From positions 1 to 22,895 of the IMG/VR virus record IMGVR_UViG_3300042563_001643: a stretch of DNA of 22,895 nt; one strand, written 5' to 3'. The position numbers and the translations under genes were made by a program. Shown piece by piece: positions 6,272 to 13,666 of the stretch (its first letter is position 1; each line of letters starts with the position of its first letter). The notes under the pieces are model-generated. The model saw nothing but the letters and a program-made list of their open reading frames with translations, did no database searches and was not told the DNA's origin. The stretch comes from a virus.

Positions 6272-6778
6272 ATGGCAAATCTACAACCCGTACTTTATAA
6301 GTACACTTCGACAAAAGAATATCACGATGCATTTCCCTGTGCTTACAGGCAATGGCGTAGTGATAGTCACTGTAATCTAATTCACGGCTATTCATTTAGT
6401 ATGAAATTTTACTTTGGCACCAACGACCTGGATGTCCGCAATTGGGCGGCTGACTATGGTGGTTTGAAAGAACTAAAGAAAACACTAGAGGATCAATTTG
6501 ATCATACCCTTATCGTAGCACAAGACGATCCTCAACTTGAAGTATTCAAAATGCTACAAGAAAAGAACATGGCCAAGATTGTTGTCCTACCTGCACTCGG
6601 ATGTGAAGCACTGAGTGATATGCTCTACAAGTATGTGAATGGTGTTTACATTCCAGAAATGTGGGGACCAGGCGAGGCTGCTAGACTTTGGTGCTATCGT
6701 GTAGAAGTGCGTGAAACACAGGCTAATATGGCATTCCGTGAAGGTCACCGCGAATGGAATGAGGATCTATTTGCGTGA
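6272..6778 (+). CDS. queD: 6-pyruvoyl-tetrahydropterin synthase / QueD-like protein
   Basis: Member of the PTPS/QueD fold, whose bacterial enzymes make 6-carboxy-tetrahydropterin on the 7-deazaguanine (queuosine/preQ0) route, or tetrahydropterins. The 168 residues include the catalytic-type Cys34 (SHCNLIHGYSF), the ADYGGLKELKK motif (60-70), the Asp77-His78 pair (QFDHTLIV) and Glu148 (VEVRET), all in family order. It is odd that two of the three usual zinc histidines look replaced: the AAHRL region reads CAYRQ (Tyr25) and HGH reads HGY (Tyr40). It is longer than typical bacterial QueD (about 120). No queC, queE or folE is visible nearby, so the product is uncertain: a DNA-modification precursor or a pterin. 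Its tga overlaps the next gene's GTG start. Confidence 0.8.
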   Translation: MANLQPVLYKYTSTKEYHDAFPCAYRQWRSDSHCNLIHGYSFSMKFYFGTNDLDVRNWAADYGGLKELKKTLEDQFDHTLIVAQDDPQLEVFKMLQEKNMAKIVVLPALGCEALSDMLYKYVNGVYIPEMWGPGEAARLWCYRVEVRETQANMAFREGHREWNEDLFA

Positions 6779-6966
6779 ACTCGTTTGAACGTATATGGGC
6801 CCGGGCAACTGGGCACCTAATGGGACAAACTGATGAGGATAGGCCGGATGTGCCTATCCTTTCTCTGCGAGAAGCTCGCATTGCTTTATTTTTAAAAACT
6901 TTTTGGGTAATCATTCACGTCATAACCTGTTTCTTTATTATTGCTAACACCCTCAGACATTGGTAA
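6775..6966 (+). CDS. small single-helix membrane protein, 63 aa, GTG start
   Basis: A 63-residue protein starting at GTG 6775 in a GTGA overlap with the QueD-like gene. The N-terminal half is soluble (FERIWARATGHLMGQTDEDRPDVPILSLREARIAL); residues about 38-58 (LFLKTFWVIIHVITCFFIIAN) form one strong membrane helix, with a short polar C-tail. I recall the DRPDVPILSLREA plus helix pattern as a conserved small protein of T4-like marine phages of unknown function. The soluble part probably faces the cytoplasm. Confidence 0.75.
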   Translation: MNSFERIWARATGHLMGQTDEDRPDVPILSLREARIALFLKTFWVIIHVITCFFIIANTLRHW

Positions 6967-6969: not shown

Positions 6970-7004
6970 ATATGCGCATATTTAATATGCATAACACACC
7001 AATT

Positions 7005-7010
7005 AAAGGA
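7005..7010 (+). promoter_or_regulatory. Shine-Dalgarno AAAGGA that decides the start at 7017
   Basis: AAAGGA ends six bases before ATG 7017. The upstream in-frame starts at 6960 and 6972 lack such a site, and the P-loop strand begins directly after Met 7017. Confidence 0.65.
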
Positions 7011-7016
7011 CCTAAT

Positions 7017-7877
7017 ATGACTAAACGCATTTTGATAATGGGATTACCTGGATCAGGTAAAACATACCTTGCACAAGCACTGAAAAAATATCTAGAAGCC
7101 AACGGTGATTTAATGAAAGTTAATCCCGGGCGAGTAACGAACTATGAAGGCATACCAGGTCCAGATTTTATGAAAGTAGGAGTAGATTGGTTCAATGCCG
7201 ATGATATCCGTAAAAAATATAACGATTGGGATTTTACTAACGCTGGGCGTATTCGTCAGAGTTTGCGTATGTTTCAATTTGCTATAGAATGTTCAGGTGA
7301 ATTTGTTATCTGTGACTTTGTTGCACCATTAGTTGAAATGCGTAACAATTTTAAAGCAGATTGGACTATTTGGGTGGACACTATTGACCAAGGCCGTTTT
7401 GAAGATACCAACAAAGCATTTGTGCCACCGGAACAATATGATTTCCGAGTTACAGAACAAGATGCCGATAAGTGGGCTGAGTTTATTGGAGATCATATAC
7501 TAGCCGATCGTAGACGTCCTCAATTTGATTGGAAAAAAGAAACAGTACAGATGTTAGGTCGTTGGCAACCTTGGCATGCCGGCCATCGTGCGTTGTTTGA
7601 ACGTCTGATTGCACGAACTGGTCAGGTAGTTATTCAGGTACGGGATGTACAGGGATGGCAAGGCAGTAATCCATTTGAAGTAGAAAAAGTCAAAGGCTTT
7701 ATTCGTCGTGATCTAGATCCCTTGTATCAGGGTCAATATGAAATTCAAGTAGTTCCAAACATTGTACACATTGGTTGGGGTCGTGGAGTAGGTTATACTT
7801 CAGGTGAAGAAACATTTGATGAATCTATTACTGACATCAGTGCTACAAAAATACGCAAAGAGCTTGGGCTTAAATGA
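7017..7877 (+). CDS. APS-kinase-like P-loop domain fused to an HxGH nucleotidyltransferase domain
   Basis: A 286-residue two-domain protein. Residues 1 to about 170 resemble adenylylsulfate-kinase-type P-loop enzymes: Walker A GLPGSGKT (9-16), WFNADDIRKKYNDWDFTNAGR (59-78) and a FVICDFVAP strand (96-104). Residues about 175-286 look like a cytidylyltransferase/NadM-type domain: GRWQPWHAGH (181-190, HxGH) and ISATKIRKEL (274-283, the ISxTxIR motif). The family pattern predicts phosphorylation of a small alcohol or sulfate nucleotide plus nucleotidyl transfer, possibly two consecutive steps in making an activated group. The substrate cannot be read from sequence. The start at 7017 fits the Shine-Dalgarno. 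The end overlaps a mini-ORF at 7874 in an ATGA. Confidence 0.8.
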   Translation: MTKRILIMGLPGSGKTYLAQALKKYLEANGDLMKVNPGRVTNYEGIPGPDFMKVGVDWFNADDIRKKYNDWDFTNAGRIRQSLRMFQFAIECSGEFVICDFVAPLVEMRNNFKADWTIWVDTIDQGRFEDTNKAFVPPEQYDFRVTEQDADKWAEFIGDHILADRRRPQFDWKKETVQMLGRWQPWHAGHRALFERLIARTGQVVIQVRDVQGWQGSNPFEVEKVKGFIRRDLDPLYQGQYEIQVVPNIVHIGWGRGVGYTSGEETFDESITDISATKIRKELGLK

Positions 7878-7915
7878 ACAAGTATCACGTTAGATTTAAC
7901 ACCAAACACAATGGC
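7874..7915 (+). repeat. direct repeat, left copy (partner 8535-8576)
   Basis: A 42-base segment repeated at 8535-8576 with 35 identical bases. The two copies flank the oxygenase gene. Most differences are synonymous, so both copies were diverged coding sequence rather than a recent tandem duplication. Confidence 0.85.
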
Positions 7916-7951
7916 GAAAGAATTATATTATTAAGAAATAGATTACAATGA
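7874..7951 (+). pseudogene. 25-codon remnant of the 74-codon gene at 8535
   Basis: ATG 7874 starts an ORF of 25 codons (MNKYHVRFNTKHNG then unrelated sequence). Its first 14 codons match the start of the gene at 8535 at 13 of 14 residues and 35 of 42 bases; six of the seven base differences are silent third-position changes. After the GGC codon at 7913-7915 similarity is lost. It overlaps the upstream kinase gene by ATGA and the downstream oxygenase gene by ATGA, so ribosomes can pass through it. It looks like a leftover 5' end at an insertion junction; translation of the mini-protein is possible but a function is doubtful. Confidence 0.75.
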
Positions 7952-8538
7952 TTTTAGAAATTGACAATTTATTAGATAGTGAAACTGCTGATAGTATTGA
8001 GAATTTTATGTTATCTACAAATTTTAATTGGGTATATATAAATTCAATATCAGGAGTCTGTGTCAATGATGAGGCAGTAGCTAATGATCCTAAAATTAAA
8101 GACTCTGACGGATTTATGCATATGTTTGTACATAATAAACAACCAGTAAGTCCACATGTTGGAATTATTCATTCATTAATGGGTTCATTGGAACAACATA
8201 CTGCTAAGACAGTAAAAGCAGTCGAACGTTCAAGGGCTGTATTAGTGTATAAAAATCCAACATTTGGAGATTTTTATCAGGGTCCTCATACAGATTATGC
8301 TAACCCTCACATGGTTATGATATACTATGTAAATGATAGCGACGGCGATACAATATTTTTTAATGAGAGACAAAAAGAACTTGTTGATAATAGCAAAAAG
8401 ACTGTTATTCAACGAATAACTCCTAAAAAAAATAAATGTATTATATTTGATGGATTACAATATCATGCTGGAAGTACTCCCAAAAACTCTCACAGGATGT
8501 TTATTAATATTAATTTTTATTTTGAAGAGGAAAAATGA
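7948..8538 (+). CDS. 2-oxoglutarate/Fe(II)-dependent oxygenase
   Basis: A 196-residue non-heme iron oxygenase of the 2OG-Fe(II) superfamily (prolyl-hydroxylase-like), which couples 2-oxoglutarate decarboxylation to hydroxylation of a substrate. The HxD iron ligands are His114 and Asp116 (GPHTDYANPH), the distal ligand is His173 (LQYHAGSTP) and Arg183 is the probable 2OG anchor (SHRMFININF). All key residues are present. The gene is strongly AT-rich (14 G+C in the 60 bases 7981-8040) compared with kdsA (32 in 60 at 9121-9180), and it lies between two copies of the 5' end of the 74-codon gene, so it is probably a transferred cassette. It overlaps both flanking ORFs by ATGA. Substrate unknown. 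Confidence 0.85.
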   Translation: MILEIDNLLDSETADSIENFMLSTNFNWVYINSISGVCVNDEAVANDPKIKDSDGFMHMFVHNKQPVSPHVGIIHSLMGSLEQHTAKTVKAVERSRAVLVYKNPTFGDFYQGPHTDYANPHMVMIYYVNDSDGDTIFFNERQKELVDNSKKTVIQRITPKKNKCIIFDGLQYHAGSTPKNSHRMFININFYFEEEK

Positions 8539-8576
8539 ACAAATATCACGTCAGGTTTAATACTAAACATCATGGC
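8535..8576 (+). repeat. direct repeat, right copy (partner 7874-7915)
   Basis: The first 42 bases of the 74-codon gene, 35 of 42 identical to the left copy. Confidence 0.85.
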
Positions 8577-8759
8577 TCGGAATTAGTTTGGCGTATCTTT
8601 GAAAATGGTGTAGAACATTTGGCCACAGATGTTCGAATCATTGGAGAAACTTTTACTGAGTGTACGCACGAGCATAACGAAACAAAGTGGAATATTGCCT
8701 GCAAGGGTAGAATGGTCTGGATTGACAAAGTTGCTGTTATTGTCACCGGAAAAGATTAA
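8535..8759 (+). CDS. conserved small phage protein, 74 aa
   Basis: A 74-residue soluble protein (MNKYHVRFNTKHHGSELVWRIFENG...) with alternating strands, containing one Trp-rich strand (LVWRIFENGVEHL), a His/Thr-rich loop (ECTHEHNETKW) and a basic C-terminal strand (GRMVWIDKVAVIVTG). The composition suggests a small beta barrel. I recall similar small proteins in marine T4-like phages but know no function. Its start overlaps the oxygenase stop by ATGA, and a truncated diverged copy of its first 14 codons precedes the oxygenase. Before the insertion it probably followed the kinase gene directly. Confidence 0.8.
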   Translation: MNKYHVRFNTKHHGSELVWRIFENGVEHLATDVRIIGETFTECTHEHNETKWNIACKGRMVWIDKVAVIVTGKD

Positions 8760-8773
8760 AATTTACTTAGTGT

Positions 8774-9607
8774 ATGAAAAACTTTAATATACATAATATA
8801 AAATTAGGAAACAACGAGCCGTTGGTATTAATTGCCGGGCCTTGTCAAATTGAAAGTCTAGATCACACACTCGAAACTGCACACAGTATAAAAGAAACCT
8901 GTGATAGTTTAGGGATCAAGTTTATCTACAAAAGCAGCTTTGACAAAGCCAATCGATCTAGTATATCAACTCGTCGAGGTGTTGGAATCGACGAAGGTTT
9001 AAAGATTCTTAATACTGTTAAACACAATTTTGGAGTGCCAGTTTTAACTGACATCCACGAAAGCTATCAGGCAGAATTGTGTGCTGCCGCTGGCATAGAT
9101 GTCTTGCAGATTCCTGCATTCTTGTGCAGGCAAACTGACCTGCTGCTAGCGGCAGGTGTTACAGGCTGTGCTATCAATGTGAAAAAAGGACAATTCCTTG
9201 CTCCCCACGATATGAAAAATGTTGCGGCAAAGATTGCCTCAACTGGCAATGAACGCATCATGTTATGCGAAAGAGGATACACTCATGGATACAATAACCT
9301 TGTTGTGGATATGCGTAGTCTACCCATTATGGCAGGCACCGGGTATCCAGTGGTTTTTGATGCCACACATAGTGTTCAGCAACCTGGTGGGCTGGGAACA
9401 GTCTCCGGAGGAGATCGCACTATGGTCCCGTACCTCGCGAGGGCAGCAGTGGCCACCGGATGCGTGAGTGCTGTGTTCATGGAATGTCATGAAGATCCAG
9501 ACAATGCCCCTAGCGATGGTCCTAATATGATCACATTATCTAATCTCAAAAACGTATTAGAAAGTCTTATAAAAATAGATGGAATTGTTAAATCCCTCCC
9601 AAACTAA
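8774..9607 (+). CDS. kdsA: 3-deoxy-8-phosphooctulonate (KDO-8-P) synthase
   Basis: KdsA condenses phosphoenolpyruvate with arabinose-5-phosphate to KDO-8-phosphate, the precursor of the Kdo that links lipid A to the LPS core. At 277 residues it is close to the E. coli length. Family motifs run in order: [10 protein letters not shown] (19-28), [55 protein letters not shown] and the C-terminal SDGPNM. Cys24 sits where metal-dependent (class II) enzymes have the metal-binding Cys and E. coli-type enzymes have Asn, so a divalent metal is predicted. The gene is G+C-richer than the oxygenase. It overlaps the next, glycosyltransferase-like gene by 29 nt. It is presumably an auxiliary metabolic gene acting on host or phage-directed sugars. 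Confidence 0.95.
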
Positions 9608-12449: not shown

Positions 12450-13007
12450 ATGGAATTTAAATTCATTCAAAAGTTTATAATCGAAGGCAAAAAAGACAAA
12501 CTTGTACAGTTGACATTGCCCTACGACCGTGATGAGTTGGCGCCGATAAAAAGTAAAGAAACTATAGATTATCACTACGGTACGCTGTACAAGGCCTATG
12601 TTGATAGATATAATAAGGGCGAAGGCGACGACGATTTCAACGAAGCTGGTGCGTTTTTACACAATATCTATTTTGGTCAACTACAAAAACCAGAAGGTGC
12701 CAACAGACCATATGATGCTATTTTGGCGTTTATAGAAAAACATTTTGATACTTTTGACAGTTTCAAAGAAGAATTTGAAAAAACAGCCATGACAATACAG
12801 GGCAGCGGATGGGCATATCTAGCTCGTGATGGCAAGATCAAAACCATTGTGAATCACGAAATCAAAAATGATATTGTGCTGTTAATTGATTGGTGGGAAC
12901 ACGCTTGGGCTCTAGACTATCAAGCTGATAAAAAAAGTTATTTGAAAAACATATGGAAAATAATCGATTGGAGGATAATCAATGGCGTACTCGGACAAAG
13001 TAATTGA
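12450..13007 (+). CDS. sod: Fe/Mn-family superoxide dismutase-like protein
   Basis: Fe/Mn-SOD fold, which converts superoxide to oxygen and hydrogen peroxide. The 185 residues carry all four expected metal ligands: His42 (DYHYGTLYKAYV), His71 (GAFLHNIYF), Asp147 and His151 (LLIDWWEHAWALDY), plus GSGWAYL (118-124) and a normal C-terminal NIWKIIDW. The usual HH pair after the first ligand (HYGKHHxxYV in E. coli-type enzymes) reads TLYKAY, so the gateway His30 equivalent is missing while Tyr50 (Tyr34 equivalent) is kept. Activity may therefore be altered. It has no secretion signal. The end overlaps iscU by 26 nt, so SOD, IscU and IscA should be made together, probably late. Confidence 0.88.
   Translation: MEFKFIQKFIIEGKKDKLVQLTLPYDRDELAPIKSKETIDYHYGTLYKAYVDRYNKGEGDDDFNEAGAFLHNIYFGQLQKPEGANRPYDAILAFIEKHFDTFDSFKEEFEKTAMTIQGSGWAYLARDGKIKTIVNHEIKNDIVLLIDWWEHAWALDYQADKKSYLKNIWKIIDWRIINGVLGQSN
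12970..12975 (+). promoter_or_regulatory. Shine-Dalgarno GGAGGA inside the SOD gene for iscU
   Basis: The GGAGGA stretch at 12970-12975, six bases before ATG 12982, gives iscU a strong ribosome site although it lies within the SOD coding region. Confidence 0.7.
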
Positions 13008-13368
13008 TCACTATGAAAATCCCAGGAATGTGGGATCTTTTGACAAGAGTGATCCTGATATTGGTACTGGTATGGTTGGCGCACCTGCTTGCGGGGATGT
13101 TATGAAACTACAGATAAAGGTTGATCATGATACAGGTATTATTACAGATGCAAAATTTAAAACGTATGGCTGCGGATCGGCTATTGCGAGCTCGAGCCTC
13201 ATTACGGAGTGGGTCAAAGGAATGCACATCGACAACGCCGGAGAAATTAAAAACTCCGAAATTGCCGAAGAACTAGCACTACCGCCAGTAAAGATACATT
13301 GTTCAATACTAGCAGAAGATGCTATCAAGGCGGCAGTGAATGATTACCGTAACCGACACAGCAGCTAA
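12982..13368 (+). CDS. iscU: Fe-S cluster assembly scaffold IscU
   Basis: IscU is the scaffold on which [2Fe-2S] clusters are built with sulfur from IscS and from which HscA/HscB release them. The 128-residue length equals that of E. coli IscU and the sequence is very close to it by eye from [20 protein letters not shown] onward. Cluster ligands Cys37 and Asp39 (APACGDVM), Cys64 (YGCGSA) and Cys107 (IHCSIL) are present, as is the HscA-binding LPPVK (100-104). No IscS, HscA, HscB or ferredoxin gene is in the window, so it would work with host partners. The start is certain from the family N-terminus. It overlaps SOD by 26 nt and iscA by 29 nt. Confidence 0.97.
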
Positions 13369-13666
13369 AAGAATTAAGCAAACTCTAGCCAAACGTGGCA
13401 AAGGTGTAGGTATCCGCATAGGTGTTAGAACTACAGGTTGCAGTGGATTAGCCTACGTGTTAGAATATGTGGACGAGTACACTGCCGAAGAGGGAGTTAC
13501 TAATTTTGCTCAACAAGACTTTGTAATATTAGTTGATGCCAAAAGCCTAGTATACCTAAACGGGCTAACAATGGATTGGGTTCGCAATGGACTCAATGAA
13601 GGGTTTGATTTCGTCAATCCCAATGAACGTGATCGCTGCGGTTGCGGTGAAAGTTTTAGAGTTTAG
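13340..13666 (+). CDS. iscA: Fe-S cluster assembly A-type carrier IscA
   Basis: A-type carrier that receives Fe-S clusters or iron and delivers them, especially [4Fe-4S], to apoproteins. At 108 residues it matches E. coli IscA in length, with [19 protein letters not shown] (24-42), [11 protein letters not shown] (85-95) and the C-terminal CGCGESFRV. The three conserved cysteines are Cys34, Cys100 and Cys102. It resembles IscA more than ErpA or SufA by these stretches. AAGG at 13327-13330 is a plausible ribosome site within iscU. It is the last gene of the SOD-iscU-iscA unit and ends in an 11-nt convergent overlap with a minus-strand gene. Confidence 0.95.

Follow-up and report, generated by a model that had tools for sequence, protein, structure and literature searches.

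A gene-start remnant beside an oxygenase gene in a giant T4-like phage points to gene gain by recombination

Gene gain in T4-like phages and the oxygenase locus

T4-like phages harbor intergenic homing endonucleases with co-conversion (PMC2988022). Cargo genes have been described at exchange boundaries marked by nuclease genes, between distant phages (PMC10448857). Illegitimate joining is a further possible route of gene gain in T4-like phages, one without recognisable junction marks (PMC2993671).

The locus described here resembles each of these systems in part. Like the free-standing Seg and Mob homing insertions (PMC2988022), it has a single-gene insert beside a conserved gene, with some relatives that lack any insert and others that have an endonuclease in its place; here, though, the inserted gene encodes an oxygenase, and part of the downstream gene's 5′ end persists as a remnant. 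As in HEG-islands (PMC10448857), cargo is swapped among distant phages at boundaries occupied by nuclease genes; unlike in those islands, the cargo has no flanking nuclease, either here or in the other oxygenase contigs examined. As in illegitimate recombination (PMC2993671), conserved genes have gained a new gene between them, for which recombination by the phage itself is a plausible route, but the junction keeps a readable signature, the recipient 5′ end, whereas the review reports no familiar mobile-element signatures there. A limited search of the open literature found no description of 5′-end scars of this kind.

The stretch analysed (the window) is a 22,895-base IMG/VR viral record from a giant T4-like phage. 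Its relatives include contigs of 338–353 kb, and T4-type major capsid genes (PF07068) are present in 9 of 12 long records of relatives. The window encodes, in order, a 63-aa membrane-like protein, a kinase, a 25-codon mini-ORF, a 2OG-Fe(II) oxygenase, a protein of 74 codons (its gene is referred to below as the small gene), and KdsA (Table 1). The small gene has no Pfam or PHROG match, and its protein has no tblastn match among isolated phages. Loci retrieved from other records are given L numbers.

Table 1 Features of the oxygenase locus, in window coordinates
Feature	Position	Strand	Basis
63-aa membrane-like protein gene	6775..6966	+	phrog_1679; directly before kdsA in 59/80 kdsA loci
kdsA 5′-end remnant (MRIFNMHN...), in frame into kinase	6972..7016	+	kdsA 5′ match; syntenic kdsA start position
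Kinase, C-terminal half nucleotidyltransferase-like	7017..7877	+	PHROG kinase 5.6e-42; weak CTP_transf_like
Probable foreign tract: kinase 3′ end, left copy, oxygenase, right copy codons 1–14	7838..8577		Divergence from L002 raised at both edges and mosaic small gene; left edge only suggestive
25-codon mini-ORF, ATGA overlaps with both neighbours	7874..7951	+	Sequence
Left copy, 14-codon 5′ remnant of small gene	7874..7915	+	tblastn, scan, codon comparison, shuffles
Cassette leader, mini-ORF end ERIILLRNRLQ, common to other oxygenase loci	7916..7947	+	Alignment with L083–L087
2OG-Fe(II) oxygenase, 196 aa, H114-x-D116 ... H173 ... R183	7948..8538	+	PF13640; residue alignment
Intact conserved 74-codon gene; codons 1–14 apparently of different lineage from remainder	8535..8759	+	Comparison with relatives
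kdsA-like gene (DAHP synthetase I family)	8774..9607	+	PF00793 1.9e-69

A repeated gene start at a site that is empty in relatives

The original prediction, made from the window alone, held that the first 14 codons of the small gene occur twice, at 7874 and 8535. Both coordinates are right. The right copy (8535–8576) is identical to the left copy at 35 of 42 bases, whereas the best match among 300 dinucleotide-shuffled versions of the 3 kb that follow reaches 27 of 42 (mean 22.2, s.d. 1.03), so the similarity stands up statistically. The left copy is also found by tblastn of the 74-aa protein against the window's own record (E = 6.8e-6) and is the top match in a systematic scan of the retrieved loci. 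Codon-by-codon comparison bears out that six of the seven base differences are silent; the sole replacement is N13H.

The oxygenase gene is AT-rich, as had been noted, with a GC fraction of 0.30 compared with 0.40 for the kinase gene, 0.39 for the small gene, and 0.42 for the window. The predicted ATGA junctions on both sides are present, and three in total chain the kinase, the mini-ORF, the oxygenase, and the small gene: the kinase TGA overlaps the mini-ORF ATG at 7874, the mini-ORF TGA overlaps the oxygenase ATG at 7948, and the oxygenase TGA overlaps the small-gene ATG at 8535. The mini-ORF to which the left copy belongs, MNKYHVRFNTKHNGERIILLRNRLQ, was absent from the earlier description.

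In the closest relatives (L001–L003), the kinase gene runs into the small gene with no oxygenase gene between them, as anticipated. Their kinase and KdsA proteins are 98% and 96% identical to those of the window, and their DNA is 95% identical up to window position 7913 and 90% identical from 8534 on. These loci provide an allelic empty site in close relatives, one of the features of free-standing homing endonuclease elements. More widely, the kinase gene directly abuts or overlaps the small gene in 65 of 80 IMG/VR small-gene loci, and a second copy of the small-gene start is present in none of the 80; the window alone has one.

The nearest relatives of the two copies belong to different small-gene lineages, in accordance with the proposal that the copies diverged apart before being brought together. 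Small genes like the left copy, which the prediction called for, exist: the nearest are L040, L041, L046, and L077, with three differences, and L002 has five. The first 39 nt of the right copy have two differences from L014 and L016 and eight from L002, and the remaining 180 nt of the small gene have 12 differences from L002 and 42 from L014. The small gene thus appears mosaic (Fisher p about 8e-4, which is optimistic because L014 was chosen as the best of 80). A transposable element with an exact target-site duplication is rejected, as the 42-nt copies differ at seven positions and resemble different lineages, and the oxygenase cassette has no ORF for a transposase.

Divergence is also raised upstream of the left copy. 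The last 40 bases of the kinase gene have six differences from L002, compared with only about 2% in the preceding 840. Together with the mosaic right copy, this may reflect co-conversion, and a tract of roughly 740 bp, from about 7838 to 8577, probably entered this phage from elsewhere. The left edge of the tract, which rests on few differences, is only suggestive because differences from L002 cluster elsewhere too. A tract with these limits implies that its donor already had the kinase end, the remnant, the oxygenase gene, and the small-gene start.

An oxygenase cassette with pieces of earlier neighbours

The oxygenase matches PF13640 with 30.1 bits (curated cut-off, 27). Residues H114, D116, and H173, corresponding to the iron-binding HxD...H triad, and R183, corresponding to the 2OG-binding arginine, are invariant in five aligned relatives. 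A fold model has a mean pLDDT of 29, which is too low to judge a double-stranded beta-helix, and a PDB profile search gave spurious ubiquitin matches only. Cyanophage 2OG-Fe(II) oxygenases (PHROG 274 and PHROG 61) are related, with about 31–34% identity over near full length, but the subfamily of the window has only six members found, all in phages bearing kdsA; none was found in bacterial genomes. PHROG 274 and many cyanophage records label this family DNA endonuclease V; the window protein matches the 2OG-Fe(II) profile, and the label is probably a misannotation. Downstream, at 12450–13666, genes for a superoxide dismutase, an IscU-like protein (NifU_N), and then an IscA-like protein lie in a row, shortly after a gene for a UvdE-type UV endonuclease; together they make up a phage gene cluster for iron-sulphur and oxidative-stress functions.

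The other five members are in IMG/VR contigs L083–L087, with 83–85% protein and about 92% DNA identity. In these, the oxygenase gene stands in front of kdsA and never in front of the small gene. Their similarity to the window reaches left of the oxygenase start, and the end of the small-gene scar is kept in four of the five (L083, L084, L085, and L087). L085 has ACCAAACACAATGGCGAAAG before the oxygenase gene, exactly as in the window; it carries ACCAAACACAATGGCGAAAGAATTATATTA, with the same scar end. L083, L084, and L087 carry TTTAACAC(C/T)AAAC and then the same leader. A search for the source gene of the leader gave only the five known contigs.

A scar end common to four contigs of the kdsA type must be older than those genomes. 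Since the oxygenase gene and the scar end already stand before kdsA elsewhere, the first insertion predates the genome of the window, and this phage probably received a ready-made oxygenase allele. Recombination at the gene start, as first proposed, is supported; a first insertion in this very genome is rejected on account of the scar end shared with L083–L085.

Remnants of kdsA itself are nested in the same region. At the syntenic kdsA start, the window has ATGCGCATATTTAATATGCATAAC, fused in frame to the kinase gene. Its first 24 nt have 3 mismatches in 21 to the kdsA 5′ ends of empty-site relatives; the best of 425 other ATGs in the window has 8. In L083 and L084, an 8-bp match, ATTTAACA, marks where kdsA ATGCGTACATTTAACA joins the small-gene scar. 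L085 has 45 nt of an L165-type kdsA start before the oxygenase gene (4/42 mismatches), its own downstream kdsA being of another type, and L086 has 24 nt of an L098-type kdsA start (3/21 mismatches). The kdsA fragments of the window, L085, and L086 adjoin the membrane gene that borders kdsA in the empty relatives. The fragments in the window and in L083–L086 indicate that DNA has entered at a gene start with the recipient 5′ end kept, several times in this region.

Other short occupants are found before kdsA. A 10-codon mini-ORF, MKIAIIGSET, lies between the oxygenase gene and kdsA at L083:4235 and L087:4594, and as MKIAIVGSET at L084:1913; it has ATGA overlaps at both ends, and its parent gene was not found. 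At L098:3768–4000, upstream of kdsA, another short gene separates the kinase gene from kdsA, so the stretch preceding kdsA is variable and has more than one kind of occupant.

Homing endonucleases at the junction and a proposed route of entry

At the kinase/small-gene junction, 8 of the 80 small-gene loci have a gene of about 210 codons, in about four distinct alleles. Those of L181, L044, and L176 encode SegE-like proteins with GIY-YIG and NUMOD3 domains, and all three types tested (L181, L057, and L033) match PHROG 314, homing endonuclease. The endonuclease genes of L176 and L181 overlap both neighbours. No clear remnant lies beside the endonuclease genes at this junction; L177 and L174, searched for an obvious one, have none.

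A scar of the same kind is present in L007 with an endonuclease as the insert. There, a 16-codon remnant, MTHYVQVLNGEVKQVI, and a full gene, MTHYVQVIGNEIKQVW..., flank an ORF that has NUMOD3 repeats and matches PHROG 314; L005, L006, and L008 have the interrupted gene without an insert. Compared with the empty-site gene, the remnant has 4 differences in 45 and the full copy 13 in 45. Divergence in the remainder of the full gene is roughly equal to that in its first block, so that L007 shows a recipient remnant and does not show a short donor tract.

Beyond the window and L007, no convincing scar was found in all loci and about 1 Mb of related contigs. Collagen-like repeats and shadows of other frames account for the remaining matches of the scan, along with promoter repeats like that at L182:7057, and these were discarded. 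At L182:7057 and 7379 (minus strand), a promoter-like block that includes a ribosome site (TATAATATTGATATTGCAACACAA...) is repeated; it stands before several genes in this 338-kb relative. Separately, the leader of the second-type endonuclease (L033:2347–2380 and L057:2356–2389; ATGTTAGGACGTTGGCA in L057) resembles MLGRWQPWH, a conserved motif of the nucleotidyltransferase half of the kinase, and could be the scar of a previous target located within the kinase gene.

We consider it likely that the left copy is a scar left when recombination at a gene start brought in a new gene, the recipient 5′ end being kept and the donor providing a fresh start. The empty site, the differing lineages of the copies, the mosaic small gene, the scar end present in other contigs, and the recurrence of such remnants with kdsA support the cassette gain originally proposed. 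In an ancestor, a break or switch would have occurred in about the first 14 codons of the recipient small gene. From a donor with the oxygenase gene followed by a small gene of its own, homologous recombination inside the small gene would have rebuilt the right side. The left side, with no matching upstream DNA, would have been joined by short or no homology, leaving the recipient 5′ end as a 14-codon remnant, with a complete start from the donor. Because the kinase stop overlaps the old start and is kept by selection, such a join would be tolerable only downstream of it. This lineage probably acquired the finished allele (kinase end, remnant, oxygenase, and new start) later, through ordinary homologous recombination spanning about 740 bp; elsewhere, the oxygenase gene would have come to stand before kdsA in other phages. 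Overlap of the remnant's start with the kinase stop, and of its stop with the oxygenase start, would make the remnant tolerable, and it may even be kept, as terminating ribosomes could restart on the new gene. Counting against this reading are the few differences that define the left edge of the tract, the exact oxygenase-type duplication being present at one locus only, the lack of clear remnants beside the junction endonucleases, and a cassette whose only ORF is the oxygenase, with no nuclease.

Two special cases of gain at a gene start differ in what made the break. In the first, to which we give a little under an even chance, no nuclease is involved and T4-like forks or free 3′ ends switch template at short matches near gene starts. 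The 8-bp match at the kdsA/small-gene fusion of L083 and L084, the T4-type capsid genes of the relatives, and the view that T4-like recombination permits illegitimate joining (PMC2993671) are in line with this, but it leaves the use of the same junction by endonucleases unexplained. In the second, to which we give a somewhat lower chance, a GIY-YIG-type endonuclease cut near codon 14, and the oxygenase gene is cargo or a later replacement of the endonuclease gene. Homing endonucleases at the same junction make them a candidate cause of the oxygenase gain: relatives have endonucleases of no fewer than two types, one SegE-like and one other, all matching PHROG 314, in precisely this position, L007 has an endonuclease insert with the same scar type, and cargo carriage by endonucleases has been proposed (PMC10448857). 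However, there is no nuclease in or near the oxygenase cassette; a PF01541 search of 50 records found endonucleases in seven, none adjoining the oxygenase gene, and gave no match in the contigs of L085 and L087. Nuclease-triggered repair is plausible as a serious candidate, and that a homing nuclease made the break is possible, at somewhat less than even probability.

The mini-ORF could instead be a functional leader peptide or small protein that resembles the N-terminus of the small-gene product and is no scar. In favour of this, the window, L083, L084, and L085 all keep an open frame that closes with the ATGA where the oxygenase begins, although their 5′ parts differ. Its sequence, however, is not conserved, because the 5′ part varies with the neighbour (small gene or kdsA) and in L086 a stop follows after eight codons, shortly before the ATGA; its likeness to resident genes is accounted for by history, and we regard a functional origin as quite unlikely. 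An assembly chimera of two phages, which a metagenomic contig with a foreign tract might suggest, is extremely improbable, since the small-gene/leader junction is inherited by several phages in independent contigs from different samples, no frame is disrupted, and the copies are not identical.

Single-gene gain between conserved phage genes was already known, with junctions that usually bear no trace of how it happened. The trace in the window identifies the gene that was entered, the approximate point of entry, and the side probably joined by homology, and the route of the oxygenase cassette is readable because it carries pieces of its earlier neighbours. Gene-start scars as a general signature are a more speculative prospect, which we think unlikely: T4-like phages would load non-nuclease genes at homing-endonuclease sites, the newcomer would bring a replacement 5′ end with the old one kept as a translation-coupling mini-ORF, and moving cassettes would collect nested 5′ fragments. 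The overlap with homing-endonuclease sites makes it a directly testable idea that nucleases open doors for unrelated metabolic genes. The scars and the relatives show that T4-like phages can gain genes singly, with the target gene left unbroken.
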